From an uncultured Gammaproteobacteria bacterium (GTDB lineage Bacteria; Pseudomonadota; Gammaproteobacteria; DRJJ01), in assembly GCA_947258795.1 (NCBI GenBank), contig CAMYJU010000004.1, positions 1 to 64,000 of the forward strand: DNA of 64,000 bases, given 5' to 3'. The position numbers and the translations under genes were made by a program. Positions 3,470 through 61,096 of this stretch are shown piece after piece (position 1 is the stretch's first letter; each line of letters opens with the position of its first letter). Below the pieces are notes generated by a model. The model was not told the DNA's origin. It searched no databases and saw only the letters and a list, made by a program, of their open reading frames with translations.

Positions 3470-6283
3470 TCAGCTCGCCGATTTCAGGTCATGGGCCAGC
3501 GGCATCAGTTCATCGAGTGGCTGCGGTTTGGCAATACCGTAGCCCTGTACATAATCAACGCCGATATCTTTCAGTATTCCGTGGATGTGCTCGTTTTCAA
3601 CAAATTCTGCAATACTCTTGATACCCATCACGCCCGCTAGTTGGTGAATGGACTTTACTATCTCCCGGTCTATTGGATCGTCGACAATATCCCGCACAAA
3701 CGCGCCATCAATTTTCAGATAATCAACCGGCATGTTTTTCAGATAAGCGAACGAGCTCAGCCCGCTGCCGAAGTCATCCAGCGCAAACCGTACACCCAGT
3801 AATTTGAGTCGCTCAATAAAGTTTATTGCTGTGGCAAAGTTGGCGATTGCCGAGGTTTCGGTGATCTCGAAACAGATGGAGCCGGATTGAAGTTCACATT
3901 CACTGACCATTTTCTCCACCTGCGTGCAGAAGTCCTCACTACCGAGTGAATTGCCCGATATATTAATGGATATCATCTCAAAATAAGCATGGCCGGCAAT
4001 GGCAAGCTGAGCAGTCAACCACACAAGTGTTTCCCTGATCACCCACAGGTCCAGGGTCGGCATCAGATCATAGCGCTCTGCTGCAGGCAGAAACAGCCCG
4101 GGCGGTATCAGCTTGCCATCGATGTCTTTCATACGCACCAGAATCTCGCCATGCATACCAACACCGTGGATATCAGCGCTAGGACTGATCGTCTGAAAGT
4201 ACAGAACCAGGTCATCACGTTCTATCGCCTGGATAATCTCGGTGACCAGCTGGATCTCGTTATGCCGGCGGCCTGACTCACTGTCCTTGCGATGATAGAC
4301 ATGCACGCAATTGCGACCCAGGTCCTTGGCCGCATAACAGGCGATATCAGCGGCACTCATAATATCGCTGACGCTCTCGCTCTCTTCATTGATTTCGACA
4401 ATGCCGATACTTGCGCCGACATCAAATATCTTGTTCTCCCAGGAGAAGCGGCTTTCCTTGACATAAAGCCTGATCGCATCCGCTAGCTCAATCGCCTGAT
4501 CTACCGAACAGTTTTCCAGCAGCACCCCGAACTCATCGCCACCCAGCCGCGCCACCACGTCGGATTCCCTGAGCATGCCCGGTATCCCTTCCGCGAGACG
4601 TTTTAGCAAAGCATCCCCCGCCACATGGCCACAGGTATCGTTTACCACCTTGAACTGGTCAAGATCGATGTAGAACACACAGGATTTCGTATTCGTGGCC
4701 CGTGCGGTGCGCAAAGCCATTTGCAGTATGGTTTCGAATTCTCCACGATTCAGCAACTTGGTCAGCGAATCGTGTGTCGCCTGGTAACCGAGTCGCTCTG
4801 TCAGTTGCAACTGCTCGGTGACATCACGGAACACGATGACATAGCCCAACTCCTTACCGTCAATGCCGAGTATCGGCGTACGCGAGCTTTGTATGTGAAA
4901 ACGGGCTCCATCACGCCGGAACAGTTGCTGGCTGCCGACAACATTATGAAACCAGTCCTTGTCATATTCGCGGCGGTTGTGACCATGGTCGGGGTTTTGT
5001 ATAACCCTGAACACTTCCGTCAATGGATGGCAGTGTGATTCGAATACGTCCCAACCGGTTAATTCCTCGGCGACCGGGTTCAGGTACAGCACTTGACCTT
5101 CGTTATTAGTTGTAATCACACCATCGGCGATTGCATCCAGCGTTATCTGTGCACGCTCCTTTTCTTCCAGCAAGGCATATTCCATTGCCTTTCTCGAACT
5201 GATATCCAGCAGGTAGCCATCGTAATGTGTCAAACGTCCCTGATCGTCGTAGACAGGAATAGTGTAATCGTAAACCCAGCATTCTGTACCATCATGCAGG
5301 CGTATACGGTAATCCTGCTCTAGCACATGTATACCGCTTTCATTGGAATGATTGAATTCCGAATTCCTTACCCGTTCACGGTCCTGGTCACTGATCAGAC
5401 TTTCAAATGAGACACCTTCATTCATTAACTGCTCGGCGTCATAACCAAATTGCCGAACGGCACTGGATATATACTCGATCGGCCAGCCCGGTTCGGCAAA
5501 ACTGCGGTAGACCACGACGGGTCCGTCATAGAACAGACGCCGCTCGCGCTTCAGGTTATCGATTGCCTCTTGTTTGCCGGCGATCTCCCAGCCCAGCTTT
5601 TCATTAGTGTCCGTGAGCTGACTGACCAGGCTCCGCTTGTCCAGACCCAGCCTTAATGAGCGTTTGACCGTGCGATGGTAATTGCTGGCGATATAGCTCA
5701 TTGCCAAGAAGTAGACCACCAGCAGCCATCCCAATGTCTGGTAAGCCGATGTCGCAGTCAACACCAGCCAGACCGATACCGGGATCAGTGCGGCCAGCTG
5801 GAATGCGAGATAGGTGCGTAATACCACAGCATAGGTATTCGCACCGGCAGACACACCGGCCAGTGAAAAGAATACTATCGCCTGATAGTGTAATGGCCAT
5901 GATGCATCTAGCATCAGCATGCTGGATGCCCATAGCAGACCACTGATGAAATTACATAGAGAAAAGCCAAGCACCCAGTTGGTGGCCGGTTGCACCTGCT
6001 TGTCCTTTTTATTATAGGCCAACACCAGTGCAACCCGGCATATGGTTACCATCAGGATGGCCCCCCACCACAGCATTAAATACTGTATCGGAGCCACATT
6101 CCATAACACACCCAACAGCACCGTAGCGACAATGAACGCAGCCGTGATCGAAGGTATGGCCTGAGAGAACAGCAGTGCAGTCTGCTCGGCAAGCAGCTCA
6201 TCCCCTGATTCTGATGTCCTATACGCATCATGCTGGGCGGCCGCGCGTACTGTTGACTGTCTAGACAACGAGAAATCTCCCAA
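3470..6283 (-). CDS. Membrane PAS-PAS-GGDEF-EAL cyclic-di-GMP protein
   Basis: A 937-residue hybrid that could make and/or degrade cyclic-di-GMP at the inner membrane. About 40-205 is a multi-pass membrane sensor with roughly six hydrophobic segments, followed by a PAS domain (about 245-365), a second PAS domain (about 375-490), a GGDEF domain (about 500-665) and an EAL domain (about 680-930). The diguanylate cyclase motif GGDEF is intact at about 581-585, with an RESD inhibitory-site motif five residues upstream. In the phosphodiesterase half the signature reads EIL rather than EAL, but other metal and catalytic positions are kept (NISG, EITET, DDFGSG, LKID, EFVE, QGY). It is probably monocistronic. 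The ligand sensed is unknown. Confidence 0.9.
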   Translation of the reverse strand: MGDFSLSRQSTVRAAAQHDAYRTSESGDELLAEQTALLFSQAIPSITAAFIVATVLLGVLWNVAPIQYLMLWWGAILMVTICRVALVLAYNKKDKQVQPATNWVLGFSLCNFISGLLWASSMLMLDASWPLHYQAIVFFSLAGVSAGANTYAVVLRTYLAFQLAALIPVSVWLVLTATSAYQTLGWLLVVYFLAMSYIASNYHRTVKRSLRLGLDKRSLVSQLTDTNEKLGWEIAGKQEAIDNLKRERRLFYDGPVVVYRSFAEPGWPIEYISSAVRQFGYDAEQLMNEGVSFESLISDQDRERVRNSEFNHSNESGIHVLEQDYRIRLHDGTECWVYDYTIPVYDDQGRLTHYDGYLLDISSRKAMEYALLEEKERAQITLDAIADGVITTNNEGQVLYLNPVAEELTGWDVFESHCHPLTEVFRVIQNPDHGHNRREYDKDWFHNVVGSQQLFRRDGARFHIQSSRTPILGIDGKELGYVIVFRDVTEQLQLTERLGYQATHDSLTKLLNRGEFETILQMALRTARATNTKSCVFYIDLDQFKVVNDTCGHVAGDALLKRLAEGIPGMLRESDVVARLGGDEFGVLLENCSVDQAIELADAIRLYVKESRFSWENKIFDVGASIGIVEINEESESVSDIMSAADIACYAAKDLGRNCVHVYHRKDSESGRRHNEIQLVTEIIQAIERDDLVLYFQTISPSADIHGVGMHGEILVRMKDIDGKLIPPGLFLPAAERYDLMPTLDLWVIRETLVWLTAQLAIAGHAYFEMISINISGNSLGSEDFCTQVEKMVSECELQSGSICFEITETSAIANFATAINFIERLKLLGVRFALDDFGSGLSSFAYLKNMPVDYLKIDGAFVRDIVDDPIDREIVKSIHQLAGVMGIKSIAEFVENEHIHGILKDIGVDYVQGYGIAKPQPLDELMPLAHDLKSAS

Positions 6284-50997: not shown

Positions 50998-51690
50998 TCA
51001 GACCTTGGTTTTCACGCGCTGTTTGTGAACAGCATAGCGTTCCCCCTGGTACAGCTCTGAGGTAGACCAGCGCCAGCCAAACAGCTTGTGCACGTGTATC
51101 ATTTCACCCTTTTCCTGGAAACCAAAACGAAAGTGCAGGCGCAGGGACGGCACATTATCCACCTCAACCGCGGCGAGTACTTTCTTGTAACCCTGATCGC
51201 GAAAGTGCTCCCAGACCCAGGCTTGCCCTTCATTGGAAATTGCCCTGCCGCGATAGGGCTCGGCTATAAAACCCGCAAGCTGATATATCTCATCATCTTT
51301 GAGCTTGAACAGGTGCTTGTAGATGATGGAATCATAAAAATCTTTGGTACTGATCCAGAAATAGCCGATCAGTACATTATCGATATAGCCGACCGTGCAG
51401 ATTGCGCCACTATCAAATAACTTTTTGAAATGATTATATTTATGTGTAAAGTGGGGTTCCAGCGAACCCATTTCCTCGACAGACTCGACCACCCTCTGCT
51501 CATCCAGCTTGCTTTGTTTGGACAGCTTTTTTACCGGGAGGCTTAAATCGCGCGTGACGACAATAACATCCATGCGCTGATAGATGTGATCATGGAAATA
51601 TTTTTTCAGTACCTGGCTCAGGCCGCGCTCATTGACTTCGTCACGCTTTTTTTTGATCTTTCTAAGTGTACTCATGTTCATTAAGGCCAT
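50998..51690 (-). CDS. GNAT-type N-acetyltransferase
   Basis: A 230-residue cytoplasmic protein. The C-terminal two-thirds show a GNAT fold: QLAGFIAEPYRGRAISNEGQ (acetyl-CoA loop), GYKKVLAAVEVDNVPSLRLH and FGFQEKGEMIHVHKL. The N-terminal 60 residues are highly charged (MSTLRKIKKKRDEVNERG). The start could be 51690, 51681 or 51675; the longest is given. Substrate unknown. It has no operon partner. Confidence 0.75.
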   Translation of the reverse strand: MALMNMSTLRKIKKKRDEVNERGLSQVLKKYFHDHIYQRMDVIVVTRDLSLPVKKLSKQSKLDEQRVVESVEEMGSLEPHFTHKYNHFKKLFDSGAICTVGYIDNVLIGYFWISTKDFYDSIIYKHLFKLKDDEIYQLAGFIAEPYRGRAISNEGQAWVWEHFRDQGYKKVLAAVEVDNVPSLRLHFRFGFQEKGEMIHVHKLFGWRWSTSELYQGERYAVHKQRVKTKV

Positions 51691-52010: not shown

Positions 52011-52487
52011 ATGAACAGTGATGAGTTCAAAAAGTACCTGGATGAATCCGTCCTGGAACTCGAACAAAAACGTTTATTACTCGAACAGCAATATGGAGTC
52101 GGACATCACGATCGCTATGTACTGGAGTACGACAACAGCTCCCTGATGTTTTTCGACAAAGAACAGCCGACCGTCGAAGCCACGATACTGCCCGTCGCCA
52201 CGTATATAACCGAAACGGAATGCCTGGTCTGGTTCTGGTCGCTCAAGAATCTGCCTGAACCAATCAGAAAACTGTCCAGCGCCGTAAAAAAACTGTATGA
52301 CATCACCGGCCAGGACATTTTCAGGAGACAGTCATTTGGTTGCAGCGAGTCAACTGCATGGGATCTGGCCTCCATGGCCTGTAAATGCCTGGACGCACAA
52401 GGTGTATACCGCGTACCCCAGGGCAACATGTATGCCTATGTACTGATCTCACAAATTACGTATTACAATCAGGCATGTATTAGCTAA
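52011..52487 (+). CDS. DUF6882-like protein
   Basis: A 158-residue soluble protein without a signal. A helical N-terminus (FKKYLDESVLELEQKRLLLEQQYG) is followed by a beta-rich part with LVWFWSLKNLPEPIRKLSSAVK and AWDLASMACKCLDAQGVYRVP. The Trp-rich WxWxxxNLPE motif fits DUF6882, a family of unknown function. A single gene. Confidence 0.65.
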   Translation: MNSDEFKKYLDESVLELEQKRLLLEQQYGVGHHDRYVLEYDNSSLMFFDKEQPTVEATILPVATYITETECLVWFWSLKNLPEPIRKLSSAVKKLYDITGQDIFRRQSFGCSESTAWDLASMACKCLDAQGVYRVPQGNMYAYVLISQITYYNQACIS

Positions 52488-52974: not shown

Positions 52975-54996
52975 ATGGCTAATTTCCCAGACCATTTAAC
53001 TGCAGGTGAAGGCGAATCTACTGTCTCTTACACGCGCGCCGAAGGTCACTACCTGTTAAAGGTTCACGATACCGAAACATTCTCGGCTATCGATTCATTT
53101 TCAACATCAGGAATTGCCAGTACAGAATTACCACCCTATATCGAAGCGGCCCGTAAAACGCTGGAGCCTGCCAGCCTGCGTTGGGTTGAAGTGTTGCCCG
53201 GATTCAACAATGCAGATGCAGAGGCCCAGTTCGCCGCAAACGATGGTGTTGATGAGATTCTGCCTGTCTACTTTGAAGAAGGCGCTGGTCCGGATAGTGC
53301 GGCTACACCGATGTTTGAAACCATTAATGTTCAGATATCCAATGATGTTGATCAGGTTATCAGTACGCTTGAATCACTGGGCCTGAGCCATCAGCCGGAA
53401 ATTTCTGCCTTGTTAAAACCAATACATGTCTTCAAGGTAAATGCCCAGGCAGATCAGTCACTGATCGATACCGCGGTAGATCTACTCCAGAAGGTCCTGA
53501 CTACAAGCGGTGTTAGCATGGCAGAGTTTGACTGGCTGAAACTCGAAACCTACACCGCAGCACCAAATGACACTAACTATGGCCAGCAGTGGAACATGAA
53601 TACTATTGGCTTGCCGGATGCACTTGACTTGGAGACCGGATCTGGCAATGTCTGGATCGCGATAATCGATTCCGGCTTCGATCTTACGCATCCCGATCTG
53701 ACCTATACACCCAATACGGCCCCGAATTTCACGCATTTTAACGCTGTCCAGTTTATAAACGGAAACCCGCCACCATATAATGCCGGGTCTTCGGGCGTAT
53801 TTCATGGTACCTGTGTTGCCGGTATTGCTGGTGCAAATACTAACAATGCGCTTGGTGTTGCCGGAGTTGCCGGCGGGTGCCAGATCATGCCTGTACGGCT
53901 GGGTACAGTCCCTAGTGCCAATCGTGTTGCTGCCGGCATAAACTGGGCTGCAGCCAATGGTGCACGTGTAGCCAGTATGTCACTGGGTACAACATCCACC
54001 ACAGCCGCCAACAATGCCATGACCAATGCATGGCTTTCAGGTCTGGTAATTTGCGCGGCAACCGGAAACAGTGGCGGCAATACCACCAGCCCGGCAGTAA
54101 ATTTTCCGGCCAGCCATGCAAATGTCATTGCAGTCGGGGCGTCAGACACCAATGACCAGCGCAAAAGGCCTGCAAGTGCCGATGGTGAAACCTGGGGCAG
54201 CCAGTTTGATGCAAACACCGATGTAGTAGCACCCGGAGTGCAGATATGGAGTACAGACGAACAGGCTGTGAGTGGCTATAACAGCAATAACGGCGGCCCT
54301 ATTACAGTTGCTGGTGTCAACTACCCAAGCTCGGGTGATGCTGCCGGCGACTATTTTTCAGTTTTTAATGGCACATCAGCCGCAACACCGCATGTTGCAG
54401 GACTGGCTGGCCTCATTTTCTCTGCCGTCGGATCCTTGACCAATCAGCAGGTACGAGACATCATCGAGTCAACCTGCACCAAGGTTAACCCGGGGATGTA
54501 TCCCTACGCCGTTACACCGGGTCGCACCAACGGCACCTGGCATCAGGAGGTTGGGTACGGACGAATTAACCTGCAGGCAGCCATATCCGCAGCGCTGCCA
54601 CCTATCCCTATCACACCGATTACTTCCATAACGGCAATCACGCCGATTACAATGATCACACCGGTCACAACAATCACACCGGTGACGACCATCACACCAA
54701 TTTCCCCGATAACCGGTATAACACCAGTCACCACGATTACACCGATCACCTCGATCACACCGGTAACTACAGTCACACCAGTTACACCCATAACGACGGT
54801 CACACCGATCACAAATGTATCGCCGATATCACCTGTAACCGGGATAACACCGATAACAATGGTCACACCGATAACTGCGATTACCACCATCTCTCCGATA
54901 AAGCCACCACCGCCGATTACGGCAATTGGACCGGTAACACCGATAGATCCTATTGACCCTGTACAGCCAGTCGATCGCGGTGATCCTGAGGACTGA
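52975..54996 (+). CDS. Subtilisin-like serine protease with a Thr/Pro hexad-repeat tail
   Basis: A 673-residue S8 peptidase. An N-terminal region of about 195 residues, possibly a propeptide, precedes the catalytic domain with an intact triad: Asp232 (AIIDSGFD), His277 (HGTCVAG) and Ser468 (NGTSAATPH), plus the oxyanion Asn365. After about residue 545 the protein ends in a tail of about 115 residues of a hexad [IV]TP[IV][TS]x, then a Pro/Asp-rich end. No Sec signal peptide is visible, and no RTX or autotransporter domain. Three enzymes follow on the same strand: GT9, a GT4-GT4-radical SAM fusion and a B12 radical SAM. The tail is a candidate for O-glycosylation or other modification; this is inference. 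Confidence 0.88.
   Translation: MANFPDHLTAGEGESTVSYTRAEGHYLLKVHDTETFSAIDSFSTSGIASTELPPYIEAARKTLEPASLRWVEVLPGFNNADAEAQFAANDGVDEILPVYFEEGAGPDSAATPMFETINVQISNDVDQVISTLESLGLSHQPEISALLKPIHVFKVNAQADQSLIDTAVDLLQKVLTTSGVSMAEFDWLKLETYTAAPNDTNYGQQWNMNTIGLPDALDLETGSGNVWIAIIDSGFDLTHPDLTYTPNTAPNFTHFNAVQFINGNPPPYNAGSSGVFHGTCVAGIAGANTNNALGVAGVAGGCQIMPVRLGTVPSANRVAAGINWAAANGARVASMSLGTTSTTAANNAMTNAWLSGLVICAATGNSGGNTTSPAVNFPASHANVIAVGASDTNDQRKRPASADGETWGSQFDANTDVVAPGVQIWSTDEQAVSGYNSNNGGPITVAGVNYPSSGDAAGDYFSVFNGTSAATPHVAGLAGLIFSAVGSLTNQQVRDIIESTCTKVNPGMYPYAVTPGRTNGTWHQEVGYGRINLQAAISAALPPIPITPITSITAITPITMITPVTTITPVTTITPISPITGITPVTTITPITSITPVTTVTPVTPITTVTPITNVSPISPVTGITPITMVTPITAITTISPIKPPPPITAIGPVTPIDPIDPVQPVDRGDPED
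54607..54950 (+). repeat. Coding repeat: 18-base hexad units in the subtilase tail
   Basis: The DNA encodes about 19 near-consecutive hexads of the form Ile/Val-Thr-Pro-Ile/Val-Thr/Ser-variable. The repeat is kept at the protein level while codons vary (ACC, ACA, ACG for Thr; CCG, CCA, CCT for Pro), so it is not a recent simple DNA expansion. Confidence 0.85.
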
Positions 54997-55098
54997 GCAA
55001 ACGGTCTGTTACAAGCAGGCATGACTCAGGGACAGCAGTTAAGGCATGGAATATTCCCGCATCCCGTGGCATACCGGCATCATCGTCAGAGTGAGCAA

Positions 55099-56031
55099 AT
55101 GATCATGAAATCGGACAGAGCAATCTTTATCGGCTTTAATGCCCTTGGCGATACATTATGTACGACGCCTGCAATCCGGGCATATCGAAAAATGCATCCA
55201 GATGCGCATATTACATACGTCGTACAGAATGCAACCTTTACACGTATACTCGAAAACAATCCTCATATCGATTTGTTAATTTATAGCGATTTTATGTATG
55301 TCAACGGGATGACAAAATACAGCCAGGAATGGCTGTATTCCTTGCCACTGGACTTTACTGTTCCCTCTACACTCTACTATTTTGATATCAACCAGGTATG
55401 CACTACCAAAGAGGCCTTTCAGGAACATATCTCAACAGGATTCTCCAGACTACTGAACATACCCATCGAGAGTATCCGCCCGGAAGTTGTGATAACAAAG
55501 CAGGAGTACAGCCGGGCCATGAGTATAGCAACCCGGCCCTATGTCGTTATCAGCATGCATTCCAATGCCAATCCTATGCGCGAAGACGAGAAAGGGGGCA
55601 GCAAGGAATGGCCTTTGGAAAACTGGCAGACACTTTGTGAATATATACGATCAAGTATGGGCTGCGAGATCATCTCAATTGGTTCAGAATTCGACCCCCA
55701 GATTAAGAGTCCGTTATGGAAAAACCGTTATGGCCTCCCTATCAATATCGTGGCAGCCCTGTTGCAGAAGGCACAGTGTGTCATTACCCTGGAAAACGGT
55801 ATAGGGCACCTGACCCATGCCGTTGATGCTACGACAGTCATGCTTTATTCGGACATAGTCCCCCTGGGCTGGGCCAACCCTGCAGAAGCAAGCCGATGCA
55901 GTGTCCTTTATGGTGACCCGCATGTAATGTCTGTAAATGATGTCATAGCCGAAATAGACAAGCTTGTAAGCAAGAACACCTGCCACACAGAGATTCTTAC
56001 TAAACGCCATGAAAATCTGCTTCTACAATGA
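55099..56031 (+). CDS. GT9-family (heptosyltransferase-like) glycosyltransferase
   Basis: A 310-residue cytoplasmic glycosyltransferase. It has the GT9 N-terminal motif FIGFNALGDTLCTTPAIRAY and the C-terminal sugar-nucleotide site AQCVITLENGIGHLTHAVD; the core includes SMHSNANPM and EWPLENWQTL. GT9 enzymes add heptose or related sugars. No LPS gene is near; the neighbours are a subtilase and two radical SAM genes. The ATG at 55099 is chosen (GTGAG ribosome site); an in-frame start at 55021 would add an unconserved leader. It overlaps the next gene by 23 bases. Confidence 0.82.
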   Translation: MIMKSDRAIFIGFNALGDTLCTTPAIRAYRKMHPDAHITYVVQNATFTRILENNPHIDLLIYSDFMYVNGMTKYSQEWLYSLPLDFTVPSTLYYFDINQVCTTKEAFQEHISTGFSRLLNIPIESIRPEVVITKQEYSRAMSIATRPYVVISMHSNANPMREDEKGGSKEWPLENWQTLCEYIRSSMGCEIISIGSEFDPQIKSPLWKNRYGLPINIVAALLQKAQCVITLENGIGHLTHAVDATTVMLYSDIVPLGWANPAEASRCSVLYGDPHVMSVNDVIAEIDKLVSKNTCHTEILTKRHENLLLQ

Positions 56032-59000
56032 CATATATATTCTCGGCGGTGGTGAGCTATGGGTCCTGAATGCATGCCAGCATTTACGGGAATCCGGTCA
56101 TGAAGTTGCTGTAGTCTGCCCCTGGCGATCTCCCCTGCATGACCAGTGCCAGGCAGCTGGCATCGAGGTCTTCTGCTTCTTTCGAATGGAAGGACTACCC
56201 AATTACGAACCGGTCTATCATTTTCTGGAAAAGAATAACTTCGATATACTTTATTGCACAATAATTGGCGGGATATGTGAGGCCATGGTACTGGAAACCA
56301 TGGTAGACCGTATCAACTGCCACCGTCCGGATTCAAGGATGGCATTAGTCCTGAAAACAGGGCTCCCGCCCATGGCGAATCTGACACCACAATACTACGG
56401 CATTGGCTCAGGTACTGCCATACCTCGTCTGCATGTGGTATCAGAACGCAACCGTCAGTCTTTTATACAGTGGCTGCATCATCACAATATCCGCTTTGAT
56501 GAGAATTTTATCGAGACTATCCGCGAAGGTGTTGATCTCAATCGTTTCAACGATTTCAGTAACAGACAGTCTGTCAATAGATCTAATCTCGGGATTTCTG
56601 CCAACCAACAGCTTGTAAGCTGTATTGCCAGACTGCACACAATGAAGGGACAGGAAAATCTGCTGCGAGCCATACCCGGAGTAATCGACAAACATCCTGA
56701 TACAGTCTTTCTGTTCGCGGGCGATGGAGAGGACCGGGCAAGACTGGAGTCCATACGGGACCAGTTGGGTCTTAGCGATCAGGTAAGATTTCTGGGACAT
56801 ATCGAGGATGTCCCTGCCCTGCTCTCCATCACTGACATCCTGTGCCACCCGTCTTTGGCAGACGGTTTGCCCAATTCTATAGTCGAGGCGATGGCCGCGG
56901 GCGTTCCTGTACTTGCGAGTGATACGGACGGCATCCCGGAACTGATACAACATGAAAAATCAGGCTTACTTATAAACCCGTATAATGTGGCCACAATCAC
57001 CAGGCTGCTAAACCGTTTGCTGGCATCACCCGATCTCAGGGGTGCCTATGCCAAGCAGGGTAAATATGTAATTCAAAACAATTTTGATATCCGGAAAAAC
57101 CTACAACACCTGATCACACGACTGAAAGATGACCTGGAAACGGTGCGCAATGGCAAAGGAATAACCAGCATTAATGCATATACTCAACAGTCCCCTGCAC
57201 CAATACCCGTGATGTTTCTGATGAACTCGGTACGCACAGGCGGAGAGGAAAGTGAAGTCAAGATACTTGCCCGATACCTGAATCGTTCCCGCTTTCCGCT
57301 ATCCGTACTGAGTTTGTATGATGTTGGTGAAGCAGCTCCGGCAATAGAAGAATTGCTTGCGTCTGGCATAACTATAGATACGGCCTGCCATGGCCTGCCG
57401 GGGACAGAGGAAAAAGTCCAATATGTAGTCAATAAAATCAGGAAGGAACAAATCAGGATAGTCGTAGCCTGCCAGGATACACGTACTGCATTTCATGTAT
57501 TCAATCACATCCTCCCAGACGAATGTCGGCTTATTGAGCATGGAGGTATAATTGAAGAAACCTCAGCAATACCCAAACATTTAACAAGATTTTATATTGG
57601 CGTTTCCCGGGATATTCGCGATGCGGCAGCGGCATTGATGCCAGACAGATCCCGGGCTGCTTACATCCCAAGCATGATCGACACCAGGGAATTCGAGGGC
57701 CTGGACAGACGGTCACTTCGAAAGGCATATGGCTTTTCAGATGATGACACAGTAGTAATTTTTGTAGGGCGGATAGACCCCAAGAAACGTATTGAACTGC
57801 TACTCCAGGCTGCTGCCACACTCATTCCGGCTTACCGACAACTGCATTTCCTGATAGTCGGGGGTGCAGATGCATACTCTCCCGAGTATCTCAAACAACT
57901 CCTGAACGCCAGTCAACTGCTAATCAATACGGGAAGACTGGCGTTTACTGGTACCCGTGGAGATGTCCCTGCCTTAATGACTGCAGCAAATATCCTGATA
58001 CTCCCCGGCACTGGTGAAGGCATGTCACATGTAATATCAGAAGCAGGAGCCGCCGGTCTTGCCGTAGTCGCTTCTGACGACGGCTCCGCCCGAGAACAAC
58101 TGGATGATGGAAAGGGAGGGTATATCTTTTCACAGGAACAACCCAATGCCCTTCTGAATACACTGGTCACCGTACTCGAAAATCCTGCTGACCGGATCGC
58201 GAAGGGATTACACCTGCGTAAAAAAGTCGCAGCCGAATACAGCGCAGATGTACTTATTCCACAATGGGAAAAATTGCTTCACGAAGCCGGAAGTGAAACC
58301 GGTAATGCACACGAGCTGTATATTCACAGTCTCGATCGGGGCATCGATTTTCCCACTGAAATACAAATCCAGACCATCACATCCTGCAATGCCTCCTGCG
58401 TCATGTGCCCTTACCCTGAGGTCTCGAAAGAATTCCCGCTCGGCCGCATGTCAGAAGAAGTATACGACCGGATTATTGATGAATGTGCGCAGGAATCAGG
58501 CTTGCGCCGTATCGAACCTTTTCTGATGAATGAAGCATTTACTGATAAACGCATTATTGAGCTCATCAGCAAAACCAAGCAAAAAGTACCTCATGCGATG
58601 GTTACTGTAACCACAAATGGTTCACCATTGACCCCCAGTGTCTCTGATCGCCTTGTAAAAACCGGACTCGATGCCATCTGGTTCAGCTTCAATGGCGCGA
58701 ACCCTGAGACTTATGAAAAAATCATGGGAATACCCTATGACAAGGTAAAACGCAATCTCGACTATCTGCTCAACATTAAACCGCCTGACCTACATGTGTT
58801 TGTAAACATGATCGAAACCGAGTTGATGGCCCCCGAGATAGAGCAGAATATACGCTACTGGCAAAGTCGCGGTGTTCAGGCCGGCTCATCTCCTCTGGTT
58901 AACCGGGCAGGTAATGTAACAAACTTTAACGATTTGAACTACAAGCCTATCAGTAACCATCCGGTTCGCACCTGTGAGCTTCCTTTTTACAAGATGTACA

Positions 59001-59191
59001 TTATACATAATGGCGATGTAGTGCTTTGCTGTATGGATTGGCGTCGCACGCAGGTTGTAGGTAATGTCATGCAGCAGAGTATTCGGGACATTTGGAATGG
59101 GCAGGAGTATCGCCGTATCCGGCAACTTCATATCGAAGGTCGTGATGCCGAACTTGAGCTATGTTCCAGGTGTTCTTACACACTAAGCTGA
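56009..59191 (+). CDS. GT4-GT4-radical SAM/SPASM fusion protein
   Basis: A 1060-residue protein with three parts. Residues about 1-380 are a GT-B glycosyltransferase (ILGGGELWVLNACQHL, FAGDGEDRARLES, HPSLADGLPNSIVEAMAAG). About 395-765 is a second GT4-like unit (RTGGEESEVKILARYL, FVGRIDPKKRIELLL, LPGTGEGMSHVISEAGAAG). About 780-1060 is a radical SAM domain with CNASCVMC (Cys793, 797, 800), followed by SPASM-type cysteines (CELPF, LCCMDW, CSRC). No membrane segments are seen. The natural reading is a bifunctional or trifunctional peptide- or glycan-modifying enzyme. It overlaps GT9 by 23 bases, so co-translation is likely. Confidence 0.8.
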   Translation: MKICFYNDIYILGGGELWVLNACQHLRESGHEVAVVCPWRSPLHDQCQAAGIEVFCFFRMEGLPNYEPVYHFLEKNNFDILYCTIIGGICEAMVLETMVDRINCHRPDSRMALVLKTGLPPMANLTPQYYGIGSGTAIPRLHVVSERNRQSFIQWLHHHNIRFDENFIETIREGVDLNRFNDFSNRQSVNRSNLGISANQQLVSCIARLHTMKGQENLLRAIPGVIDKHPDTVFLFAGDGEDRARLESIRDQLGLSDQVRFLGHIEDVPALLSITDILCHPSLADGLPNSIVEAMAAGVPVLASDTDGIPELIQHEKSGLLINPYNVATITRLLNRLLASPDLRGAYAKQGKYVIQNNFDIRKNLQHLITRLKDDLETVRNGKGITSINAYTQQSPAPIPVMFLMNSVRTGGEESEVKILARYLNRSRFPLSVLSLYDVGEAAPAIEELLASGITIDTACHGLPGTEEKVQYVVNKIRKEQIRIVVACQDTRTAFHVFNHILPDECRLIEHGGIIEETSAIPKHLTRFYIGVSRDIRDAAAALMPDRSRAAYIPSMIDTREFEGLDRRSLRKAYGFSDDDTVVIFVGRIDPKKRIELLLQAAATLIPAYRQLHFLIVGGADAYSPEYLKQLLNASQLLINTGRLAFTGTRGDVPALMTAANILILPGTGEGMSHVISEAGAAGLAVVASDDGSAREQLDDGKGGYIFSQEQPNALLNTLVTVLENPADRIAKGLHLRKKVAAEYSADVLIPQWEKLLHEAGSETGNAHELYIHSLDRGIDFPTEIQIQTITSCNASCVMCPYPEVSKEFPLGRMSEEVYDRIIDECAQESGLRRIEPFLMNEAFTDKRIIELISKTKQKVPHAMVTVTTNGSPLTPSVSDRLVKTGLDAIWFSFNGANPETYEKIMGIPYDKVKRNLDYLLNIKPPDLHVFVNMIETELMAPEIEQNIRYWQSRGVQAGSSPLVNRAGNVTNFNDLNYKPISNHPVRTCELPFYKMYIIHNGDVVLCCMDWRRTQVVGNVMQQSIRDIWNGQEYRRIRQLHIEGRDAELELCSRCSYTLS

Positions 59192-59192
59192 C

Positions 59193-59255
59193 ATGAACAG
59201 ACAGCCTGATCAACCAGCCGCACAGATAACTCCTGATATAAGCAAACAGTCATGA
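59193..59255 (+). CDS. Possible 20-residue leader ORF before the B12 radical SAM gene
   Basis: A small frame (M-NRQPDQPAAQITPDISKQS) starts 2 bases after the fusion gene stop, and its TGA overlaps the ATG of the next gene as ATGA. This is the arrangement of a translationally coupled short ORF. It has no clear ribosome site. It contains the tripeptide ITP, which also forms the hexad repeat of the upstream subtilase; that may be chance. It could be only a coupling device. Confidence 0.25.
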   Translation: MNRQPDQPAAQITPDISKQS

Positions 59256-61096
59256 CGGATATCCTGCTCCTAAACATGCCTTTTGTATCAATCTCACGGC
59301 CGGCGATCGGAATCAGTACTCTCAAGTCCGTTCTGACAGCGCAGAATATCCAGGCAGATATAGCCTATCCGAACATCCTGTTCGCACAAATGATGGGGCT
59401 ACCTACCTATGAACTGCTTGATGAAAAACTCAGTGATGCTCTTTTTTGTGGTGACTGGTTATTCGCACAATATCTTTTCGCTGAAGAGCTGGATCTGGAT
59501 ACCTATATCAATACCCTGGAACATTATACTGAAGGCAAAAGTGCATTCGAAAAAATCATGGCCGCACGCGATCGTATTGAAGAATTTCTGCTAACTTGTA
59601 TAGAAACCTACAATATCAAGGATTACAGTATCATCGGTTTTACATCCACCTTTGAGCAAAATCTTGCTTCTCTTGCCCTGGCAAAGCTGATTAAAACGAA
59701 ATACCCCGACAAGAAAACCATTATTGGAGGATCCAACTGCGAAGGCCTGATGGGACTGCAAATACACAAAAGTTTCCCATGGATTGACTACGTATGTACT
59801 GGTGAAGGCGAAAAATGCCTACTGGAACTGGTAACACGACTGAAACAGGGCCTTGGCGTACAAGGCGTCAGGGGGATCATTTACCGTGACGGGGATCAGT
59901 CGATAGACAATGGCCTGGTCGAATCAGCCATCTGCATGAATGACATACCAATACCTGATTATGATGACTATTTTCTGGCTATTCGAGACAACGGAATGGA
60001 TCGGCGGCTGAATCCCTCGTTACCAATTGAAACCTCACGGGGATGCTGGTGGGGGGCCAAATCACATTGCACATTCTGTGGTCTGAATGGAGCCACAATG
60101 AACTTTCGAAGCAAGAGTACATCAAGAGTCATCCATGAGCTTCAATACCTGAAGACACGGTACTCAATTCAGCAATTTGTAGCCGTGGACAATATTATTG
60201 ATATGAGCTACTTCCAGGATTTATTACCACAGCTTCGGGACCGGCCTCTGGGTGTATCACTGTTCTACGAAACCAAGGCCAATTTGAAAAAAGAACAGGT
60301 TTTACTTCTGAAAGGGGCAGGTATACATGCTATACAGCCAGGTATCGAGAGCCTGAGTAGCCATGTTTTAAAACTGATGCGGAAAGGCGTGACGGCCATA
60401 CAGAATATCCAGCTACTCAAATGGTGTAAAGAATATGGCATAAATGTAGCCTGGAATCTGTTATATGGATTTCCAGGAGAAACCCAGCGCGATTTTGAGG
60501 ATATTTACGAATTAATGGATTCCATATATCACCTGCAACCGCCTCATTCCATAGGCACAGTCAGAATGGACAGGTTCAGTCCTTATTTTACTGATCCTGA
60601 ATCGTTCGGACTGAAGAATGTAAAACCCTTTACCATTTACCAGTATATATATCCAGTTCCTGCAGAAGATCTGAAACATCTGGTTTATTTTTTTGAGTAT
60701 GAGTCCCGGGAGCAACAGCAAATCGAATCATATATAACCAGGCTCCGGGATAAAGTCGATGCATGGAAGGCCTCCAGCGGCTGCAATTTAAGCAAGAAAT
60801 ACGATGACGATTCAGGCTTACTTATTACAGACACTCGACCCAACAGGGTCCACGAACACATCGTACTGAAAGGGATTCAAAAAGATGTCTATGACTTCTG
60901 CGAACAGAAAAGAAGTCATTCCGGCATCACACGATTCCTGGACCAGACTTATGGCCTCTGTACGGATATCGAAACATGGCTAAGCCAGTTTTTAAAACAG
61001 ATGGTCGAATGGCGACTAATGGTATTTGAGAACGGGCACTTTTTAAGTCTCGCAACAATTGAGCAGGATCACACTCGACAGAAATCCTGCCTATAA
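59252..61096 (+). CDS. B12-binding radical SAM enzyme of the RiPP-maturation type
   Basis: A 614-residue protein. The N-terminal part (about 1-215) is a cobalamin-binding-like domain (IGISTLKSVLTAQ, KTIIGGSNCEGLMGLQIHKS, YVCTGEGEKC). The radical SAM cluster sits in RGCWWGAKSHCTFCGLNG with Cys265, Cys273 and Cys276, spacing Cx7CxxC instead of the usual Cx3Cx2C. This spacing, with CGLNGATMNFRSKS, is typical of the RiPP maturation radical SAM C-methyltransferase group (TIGR03975). A helical C-terminal region follows. Known members methylate ribosomal peptide precursors; none with a recognised leader is nearby. It abuts the fusion gene. Confidence 0.83.
   Translation: MTDILLLNMPFVSISRPAIGISTLKSVLTAQNIQADIAYPNILFAQMMGLPTYELLDEKLSDALFCGDWLFAQYLFAEELDLDTYINTLEHYTEGKSAFEKIMAARDRIEEFLLTCIETYNIKDYSIIGFTSTFEQNLASLALAKLIKTKYPDKKTIIGGSNCEGLMGLQIHKSFPWIDYVCTGEGEKCLLELVTRLKQGLGVQGVRGIIYRDGDQSIDNGLVESAICMNDIPIPDYDDYFLAIRDNGMDRRLNPSLPIETSRGCWWGAKSHCTFCGLNGATMNFRSKSTSRVIHELQYLKTRYSIQQFVAVDNIIDMSYFQDLLPQLRDRPLGVSLFYETKANLKKEQVLLLKGAGIHAIQPGIESLSSHVLKLMRKGVTAIQNIQLLKWCKEYGINVAWNLLYGFPGETQRDFEDIYELMDSIYHLQPPHSIGTVRMDRFSPYFTDPESFGLKNVKPFTIYQYIYPVPAEDLKHLVYFFEYESREQQQIESYITRLRDKVDAWKASSGCNLSKKYDDDSGLLITDTRPNRVHEHIVLKGIQKDVYDFCEQKRSHSGITRFLDQTYGLCTDIETWLSQFLKQMVEWRLMVFENGHFLSLATIEQDHTRQKSCL

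Follow-up and report, generated by a model that had tools for sequence, protein, structure and literature searches.

A conserved fusion of two GT4 glycosyltransferases with a radical SAM domain in a candidate cassette for triplet-repeat polypeptide modification

The 64,000-nucleotide stretch analyzed here (the window) comes from an uncultured Gammaproteobacteria bacterium (GenBank assembly GCA_947258795.1, contig CAMYJU010000004.1) and carries, at positions 56009-59191 of the plus strand, a gene that joins two glycosyltransferase (GT) modules of family GT4 to a radical S-adenosylmethionine (SAM) domain. This fusion is conserved in other genomes, where it forms part of a cassette encoded on one strand in the order repeat peptide, GT9, GT4-GT4-radical SAM fusion, a second radical SAM enzyme of the twitch type (in Bryobacterales) and a B12-type radical SAM enzyme (Table 1). 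The fusion would be a three-domain maturase in this cassette, which resembles those for ribosomally synthesized and post-translationally modified peptides (RiPPs), and the substrate would be an Ile/Val triplet-repeat polypeptide with no leader, encoded either by itself or as a subtilase tail.

The fusion is encoded by one uninterrupted frame of 1060 amino acids (aa), with an ATG at 56009 and zero internal stops. Pfam and NCBIfam scans agree on two GT4 modules followed by Radical_SAM and PF13186. Glycos_transf_1 (PF00534) was matched twice, once in each GT module, Radical_SAM (PF04055) at residues 788-925 (E 9e-14, 52 bits vs a cut-off of 29.5) and PF13186, the Pfam "SPASM" model, at residues 989-1055 (E 1e-16). 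The segments PSLADGLPNSIVEAMAAG, which begins at residue 281, and GEGMSHVISEAGAAG, which begins at residue 669, lie in GT modules 1 and 2, respectively. Both modules show the features of GT4 enzymes, i.e., a GT-B fold, Glycos_transf_1 and E-x7-E or D-x7-E, and their fold neighbours in Foldseek were HepE, PimB', MshA and BshA. With 29% identity over 167 aa, the two modules are clearly related, though not by a recent duplication. Module 3 carries both PF04055 and the CxxxCxxC motif of the radical SAM superfamily (C793, C797 and C800, in the segment CNASCVMC that begins at residue 793). The catalytic motifs of the fusion modules are intact. An initial sequence-only reading had described the active-site glutamates as intact, which holds for the E-x7-E of module 2 but not for module 1, where the first Glu is replaced (D-x7-E); the two patterns are common to the fusion orthologues.

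The same reading had labelled the C-terminal domain as SPASM-like, and this label had to be revised. SPASM domains, with two auxiliary clusters, are defined by the seven-cysteine motif CX9-15GX4C...CX2CX5CX3C...C (PMC6231123), which is absent from the C-terminus of the fusion. Since only C989, C1007/C1008, C1052 and C1055 are found there and the chain stops after C1055, the domain is a twitch domain, i.e., a truncated SPASM predicted to bind one auxiliary cluster (through four Cys ligands in BtrN), rather than a full SPASM domain. Consistent with this, the C-terminus aligns without gaps to the twitch domain of BtrN, including its four cysteines. C793, C797, C800, C826, C989, C1007, C1008, C1052 and C1055 are among the module 3 cysteines that are invariant in the orthologues. 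Among solved structures, BtrN (PDB 4M7T) is also the closest in sequence (E 8e-15) and the best Foldseek match (4m7t, E 7e-15) of a model of the radical SAM module (pLDDT 85, pTM 0.85). BtrN is a dehydrogenase that carries out the two-electron oxidation of an amino-cyclitol alcohol (PMC9012708). Module 3 is related to BtrN-type dehydrogenases and may share their two-electron oxidation of a secondary alcohol. A full-length fold model (four sequences) was poor over much of the radical SAM part and its domain arrangement was therefore not used.

A search of 85,000 species genomes with the whole fusion gave zero matches, and the adjoining gene for the TIGR03975 B12 radical SAM enzyme was therefore used as bait. 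Among the 80 best loci of this search, 3 had the same cassette, namely L064 (Deltaproteobacteria SURF_52), L065 (Bryobacterales SJ270) and L066 (Bryobacterales SJ214). Another cassette (G760/L165) was found in a search of 250 Bryobacterales genomes. Identity to the window chain is 49% for L064, 48% for L065, 49% for L165 and 54% for L066. The L064, L065 and L165 chains are complete and unbroken at both joins, and the L066 chain is truncated by the end of its contig inside the second GT module. The radical SAM module is the most conserved (62-65%, compared with 40-42% for GT module 1). The window was at first the single observation of this chain, which could have pointed to an assembly error or a sequencing frame fusion. 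As the chain recurs in four independent genomes at 48-54% identity through the joins (in three of them complete, in one from the contig end within the second GT module onward), the joins do not represent such errors, and an artefact can practically be dismissed. Two GT4-like units and a CxxxCxxC radical SAM domain in one chain, as originally proposed, are hence real and conserved. None of the orthologues is encoded as separate genes, the finding that had been named as evidence against a fusion; split GT4 and radical SAM genes were found only at about 40% identity.

An Ile/Val-rich peptide, arranged mostly in triplets with Thr, Ser or Pro, precedes the GT9 gene in all four cassettes whose contig extends that far; this gives each testable cassette a candidate precursor directly beside tailoring enzymes, as expected of RiPPs. 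In the window, the repeat is a tail behind a 541-aa enzyme part; 40 of its 44 triplets have Ile/Val in the same phase, and it contains 42 Thr/Ser and 30 Pro. The free peptides in other cassettes consist of repeat nearly from the first residue, and only the window has a large N-terminal protein in front. For three of these repeats (window, L064 and L165), none of the 10,000 shuffled versions was as conserved in phase. A six-frame scan for this periodicity in 1.48 Mb found six places, all upstream of and on the same strand as a B12 enzyme gene, and zero places in 0.43 Mb of control DNA. Given its position, strand and recurrence, the triplet repeat very probably serves as the substrate of the cassette enzymes. 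The window subtilase itself has intact catalytic triad motifs (DSGFD 232, HGTCVAG 277 and GTSAATPH 466), and no obvious signal peptide was seen in its sequence by eye.

The B12 enzyme scored far above the cut-off of TIGR03975, a subfamily annotated as RiPP maturases, other members of which adjoin a pheganomycin-family precursor or Nif11 precursors. In a tree of 87 B12 enzymes, those of the window and of the four other cassettes form one clade (SH-aLRT 100). Three of the six periodicity places (L069, L073 and L099) are Ile/Val-Pro tails of subtilases encoded directly before a TIGR03975 gene; the B12 enzymes of these loci fall in a separate clade (SH-aLRT 99), and no GT or fusion was recognized there. 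The presence of triplet tails in this clade indicates that the link between tail and B12 enzyme is broader than the fusion.

Distant stand-alone homologues of the radical SAM domain (33-42% identity to module 3) provide further context. One of them (L185) is found in a GT2-GT4-radical SAM run, another (L190) overlaps a GT4 gene and a third (L170) is found at a locus with two GT9s, a GT2 and a lipid A acyltransferase; no GT was recognized alongside those at L166-L169 and L187-L189. The glycan loci suggest that the chemistry of this subfamily may be directed at sugars, and they favour a radical domain that oxidizes or epimerizes a sugar. The earlier proposal that glycosylation and the radical step have a common substrate or pathway gains weight; in these loci, a member of the same subfamily is a separate protein beside GT genes, and the fusion could plausibly have arisen from GT4 and radical SAM genes that were neighbours. 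At L170 (6022-8894), a GT9 gene is flanked by two twitch-type radical SAM genes, with GT9, GT2, HAD phosphatase and lipid A acyltransferase genes at the locus, and a possible function is radical sugar modification of lipopolysaccharide.

In the proposed mechanism, GT9 and the two GT4 modules would build O-glycans on the regularly spaced Thr/Ser of the repeat, as judged from enzyme families and sequence composition. The fused twitch domain would take a hydrogen from the carbinol carbon of the newly added sugar, resulting in oxidation, as in BtrN, or in epimerization, and the fusion would couple this radical step to glycosylation. The TIGR03975 enzyme is predicted from its family to C-methylate unactivated carbons of the repeat, and the window subtilase might, more speculatively, be a carrier or a self-processing protease. 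For the radical step, the closest relatives by sequence and fold, along with gene context, suggest that the radical SAM domain would on balance work on the sugar rather than on the peptide. The whole chain of steps is put forward with slightly more doubt than confidence, and only tentatively could its product represent a new class of modified polypeptide, i.e., leaderless Ile/Val triplets that are O-glycosylated and, in cis with glycosylation, oxidized or epimerized on the peptide-borne sugar by the single GT4-GT4-radical SAM protein, and C-methylated by the B12 enzyme.

Several points weigh against this proposal. GT4 and GT9 enzymes mainly modify lipids and polysaccharides, no transporter was recognized beside the cassette, and short repeat peptides without a recognizable leader are atypical for RiPPs. 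The L065 peptide, which is Ile/Val/Pro-rich and irregular, has no significant period of three (shuffle p 0.58). In Foldseek, the fold neighbours after BtrN included the peptide-acting SuiB, EpeE, SkfB and anSME, function is poorly predicted from relatedness in this radical SAM subfamily (PMC6231123), and the proposed chemistry is itself inferred. The radical domain might instead modify the repeat peptide (by Thr/Ser oxidation, L-to-D epimerization or a C-C or C-O cross-link, as known for other RiPP maturases), with the GTs glycosylating the resulting residues. A RiPP-type B12 radical SAM enzyme and a repeat peptide as neighbours, as well as SuiB and EpeE among the fold neighbours, are consistent with such a role; in addition, the radical SAM enzyme TvgB forms cyclopropylglycine on TVGG repeats (PMC9062424), and the extra conserved C826 and C1008 could be hydrogen donors in an epimerase. 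This peptide-directed chemistry is nevertheless unlikely, as a cyclitol dehydrogenase is closest by both sequence and fold, the stand-alone homologues in glycan loci have no recognized repeat peptide nearby, and Pfam and NCBIfam scans did not recognize an RRE peptide-binding domain.

The cassette could also produce an exopolysaccharide or a lipid-linked oligosaccharide, with the repeat peptides as bystanders, given that most members of the GT4 and GT9 families work on polysaccharides or lipopolysaccharide and that, in NCBIfam, the GT modules come closest to GTs for exopolysaccharides and lipids (all below cut-off). This is improbable in view of the repeat before GT9 in four of four testable cassettes from distant taxa and of a partner from a RiPP subfamily scoring far above cut-off; moreover, no polymerase, flippase or export gene was recognized next to the cassette. 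A further alternative concerns the fate of the product and overlaps with the preferred enzymology without excluding it: the modified repeat may stay as a permanent structural or adhesive protein segment, comparable to serine-rich repeat glycoproteins, the subtilase tail being the modified part. Substrates that are nearly all repeat, with no apparent division into leader and core, and the fusion of the window repeat to a 541-aa enzyme would fit this fate. Against it, the free peptides have a length of just 67-97 aa, and inspection by eye showed neither a signal peptide nor an anchor in any of them. A permanent segment is possible, though somewhat doubtful.

Several known systems share some features with the window cassette. 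BtrN, from butirosin biosynthesis, is the best solved relative, with a gapless alignment over the auxiliary-cluster domain, but it stands alone and acts on a small cyclitol, whereas the fusion domain is the third module of a GT4-GT4-radical SAM chain and has the extra conserved C1008. The window B12 enzyme is by score a full member of TIGR03975, as in the pheganomycin-type and Nif11-type clusters; in the annotated TIGR03975 clusters, however, its partners are other precursors, an epimerase or a peptide ligase instead of GT9, the GT4-GT4-radical SAM fusion or leaderless triplets. Protein O-glycosylation of repeats is carried out by BAHT heptosyltransferases such as TibC and, on serine-rich repeats, by GtfA/GtfB and SdgA/B. 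Like the cassette GTs, these are GT-B enzymes; they glycosylate Ser/Thr that recur at regular intervals in repetitive proteins, but their systems are not known to have radical SAM enzymes. The SdgA model was matched weakly (74 bits vs a cut-off of 800). In the HxsA/HxsB/HxsC (His-Xaa-Ser) and TvgA/TvgB (TVGG) systems (PMC9062424), as in the window cassette, a repeat peptide of short period is accompanied by radical SAM enzymes; these systems differ in having another repeat, no glycosyltransferases and no fusion, and the HxsC model scored 26 bits (cut-off 268).

The cassette is rare. Among 398 further genomes from the same phylum as the window, none had a radical SAM match at E <= 1e-35, and in the order of G749 the radical SAM search was positive in 3 of 250 genomes. 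In a plasmid search, no place covered 80% of the fusion, the best matches being single GT4s that hit both halves, and phage and viral collections gave only radical SAM proteins with 23-29% identity. A PADLOC search for anti-phage defence gave no match for the fusion, the S8 protein or GT9; the B12 enzyme was matched only marginally (20.5 bits). The MscS flank gene, sought in the same-genus genome G001 (81% complete) as a marker of an empty site, had no match, a result that carries no weight at this completeness. Horizontal acquisition of the cassette was considered, but the signal is too weak to claim (GC content 0.48 vs 0.51). In the openly licensed literature, no report was found of this chain, of triplet-repeat peptides as its partners or of subtilase triplet tails with TIGR03975.

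Every single domain of the fusion is already known, and there is a fair chance that the cassette makes a new product class; it is a candidate for a new route to heavily modified peptides. In most cases, sugar attachment and radical chemistry are separate steps of different enzymes, and a conserved single chain would show how they are coupled in the cell and would directly name the substrate. Two to four genes are enough to test the system in E. coli, since the repeat peptides are small, are defined by their genes and apparently lack a leader. A wider, apparently undescribed TIGR03975 group may have Ile/Val/Pro triplet tails on subtilases as substrates, which genome-mining tools based on leaders would miss.

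Table 1. Coordinates of cassette features in the window and of free repeat peptides in other cassettes
Feature	Sequence	Position	Strand	Evidence or remarks
Subtilase (S8), 673 aa, bears repeat tail	Window	52975..54996	+	PF00082 at 225-529, E 9e-43
Subtilase tail of 132 aa in (I/V)-(T/S)-x triplets at the C-terminus, presumed substrate	Window	54598..54993	+	Composition, periodicity
GT9, heptosyltransferase-like	Window	55021..56031	+	PF01075, E 3e-9, 37 bits vs 22
Fusion module 1, residues 1-385	Window	56009..57163	+	GT4, GT-B fold, D-x7-E at 285-293
Fusion module 2, residues 386-764	Window	57164..58300	+	GT4, GT-B fold, E-x7-E at 670-678
Fusion module 3, residues 765-1060	Window	58301..59188	+	Radical SAM and BtrN-like twitch auxiliary-cluster domain
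B12-type radical SAM enzyme, RiPP C-methyltransferase subfamily TIGR03975	Window	59252..61096	+	670 bits vs cut-off of 281.85
Free repeat peptide, 94 aa	L064	4559-4843		Before GT9, same place as window tail
Free peptide, ~67 aa	L065	about 4653-4856		Before GT9
Free repeat peptide, 97 aa	L165	11356-11649	-	Before GT9

The GT9 protein has 44-47% identity to its counterparts in the other cassettes and misses the cut-offs of the equivalog models for lipopolysaccharide heptosyltransferases; judged from spacing, its start is more likely at about 55099-55105. The end of the GT9 gene and the start of the fusion overlap; they share 23 nt in the window and 10 nt in L064, where the B12 frame begins directly after the fusion stop. 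The overlap of cassette genes suggests translational coupling. The second twitch radical SAM gene of the Bryobacterales cassettes follows the fusion and precedes the B12 gene (L065 8970-9992, L066 1742-2848 and L165 6128-7348); its product has 35-36% identity to the fused radical SAM domain (L065 and L066), and it is missing from the window and L064 cassettes. Just upstream of the window cassette are genes for a DUF6882 protein (52011-52487) and a GNAT acetyltransferase (50998-51690), both without a recognized counterpart at the other cassettes.

Subtilases with an Ile/Val-Pro triplet tail were found immediately upstream of a TIGR03975 gene at L069 (7449-9248), L073 (tail near 2367-2560), L074 (3860-5791), L099 (7984-9951) and L058 (about 846-2490, frame-shifted). 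These loci span Planctomycetota, Actinomycetota, Acidobacteriota and Pseudomonadota, no GT was recognized at them, and their subtilases represent a second family of substrates with tails, apparently a wider one. At L065 (11761-12492), L058 (4929-5741), L069 (11489-12247) and L099 (12251-12964), the B12 gene is followed by one whose product has an HxD...H...R pattern. The spacing resembles that of 2-oxoglutarate/Fe(II) oxygenases, with no Pfam match in the three of these four proteins tested, and the protein is possibly a divergent prolyl hydroxylase acting on Pro-rich tails. At L075 (7634-8713 and 8723-9970), a 360-aa protein with PPVRPPVRPP/PPIVPF repeats at its end adjoins a TIGR03975 gene and another radical SAM gene, and an S8 protein without a tail is encoded downstream. 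Downstream of the TIGR03975 gene at L067 (12003-13787) are genes for two proteins that end in Pro/Ile-rich tails, and the open reading frames that follow them appear ThiF- and YcaO-like by eye.

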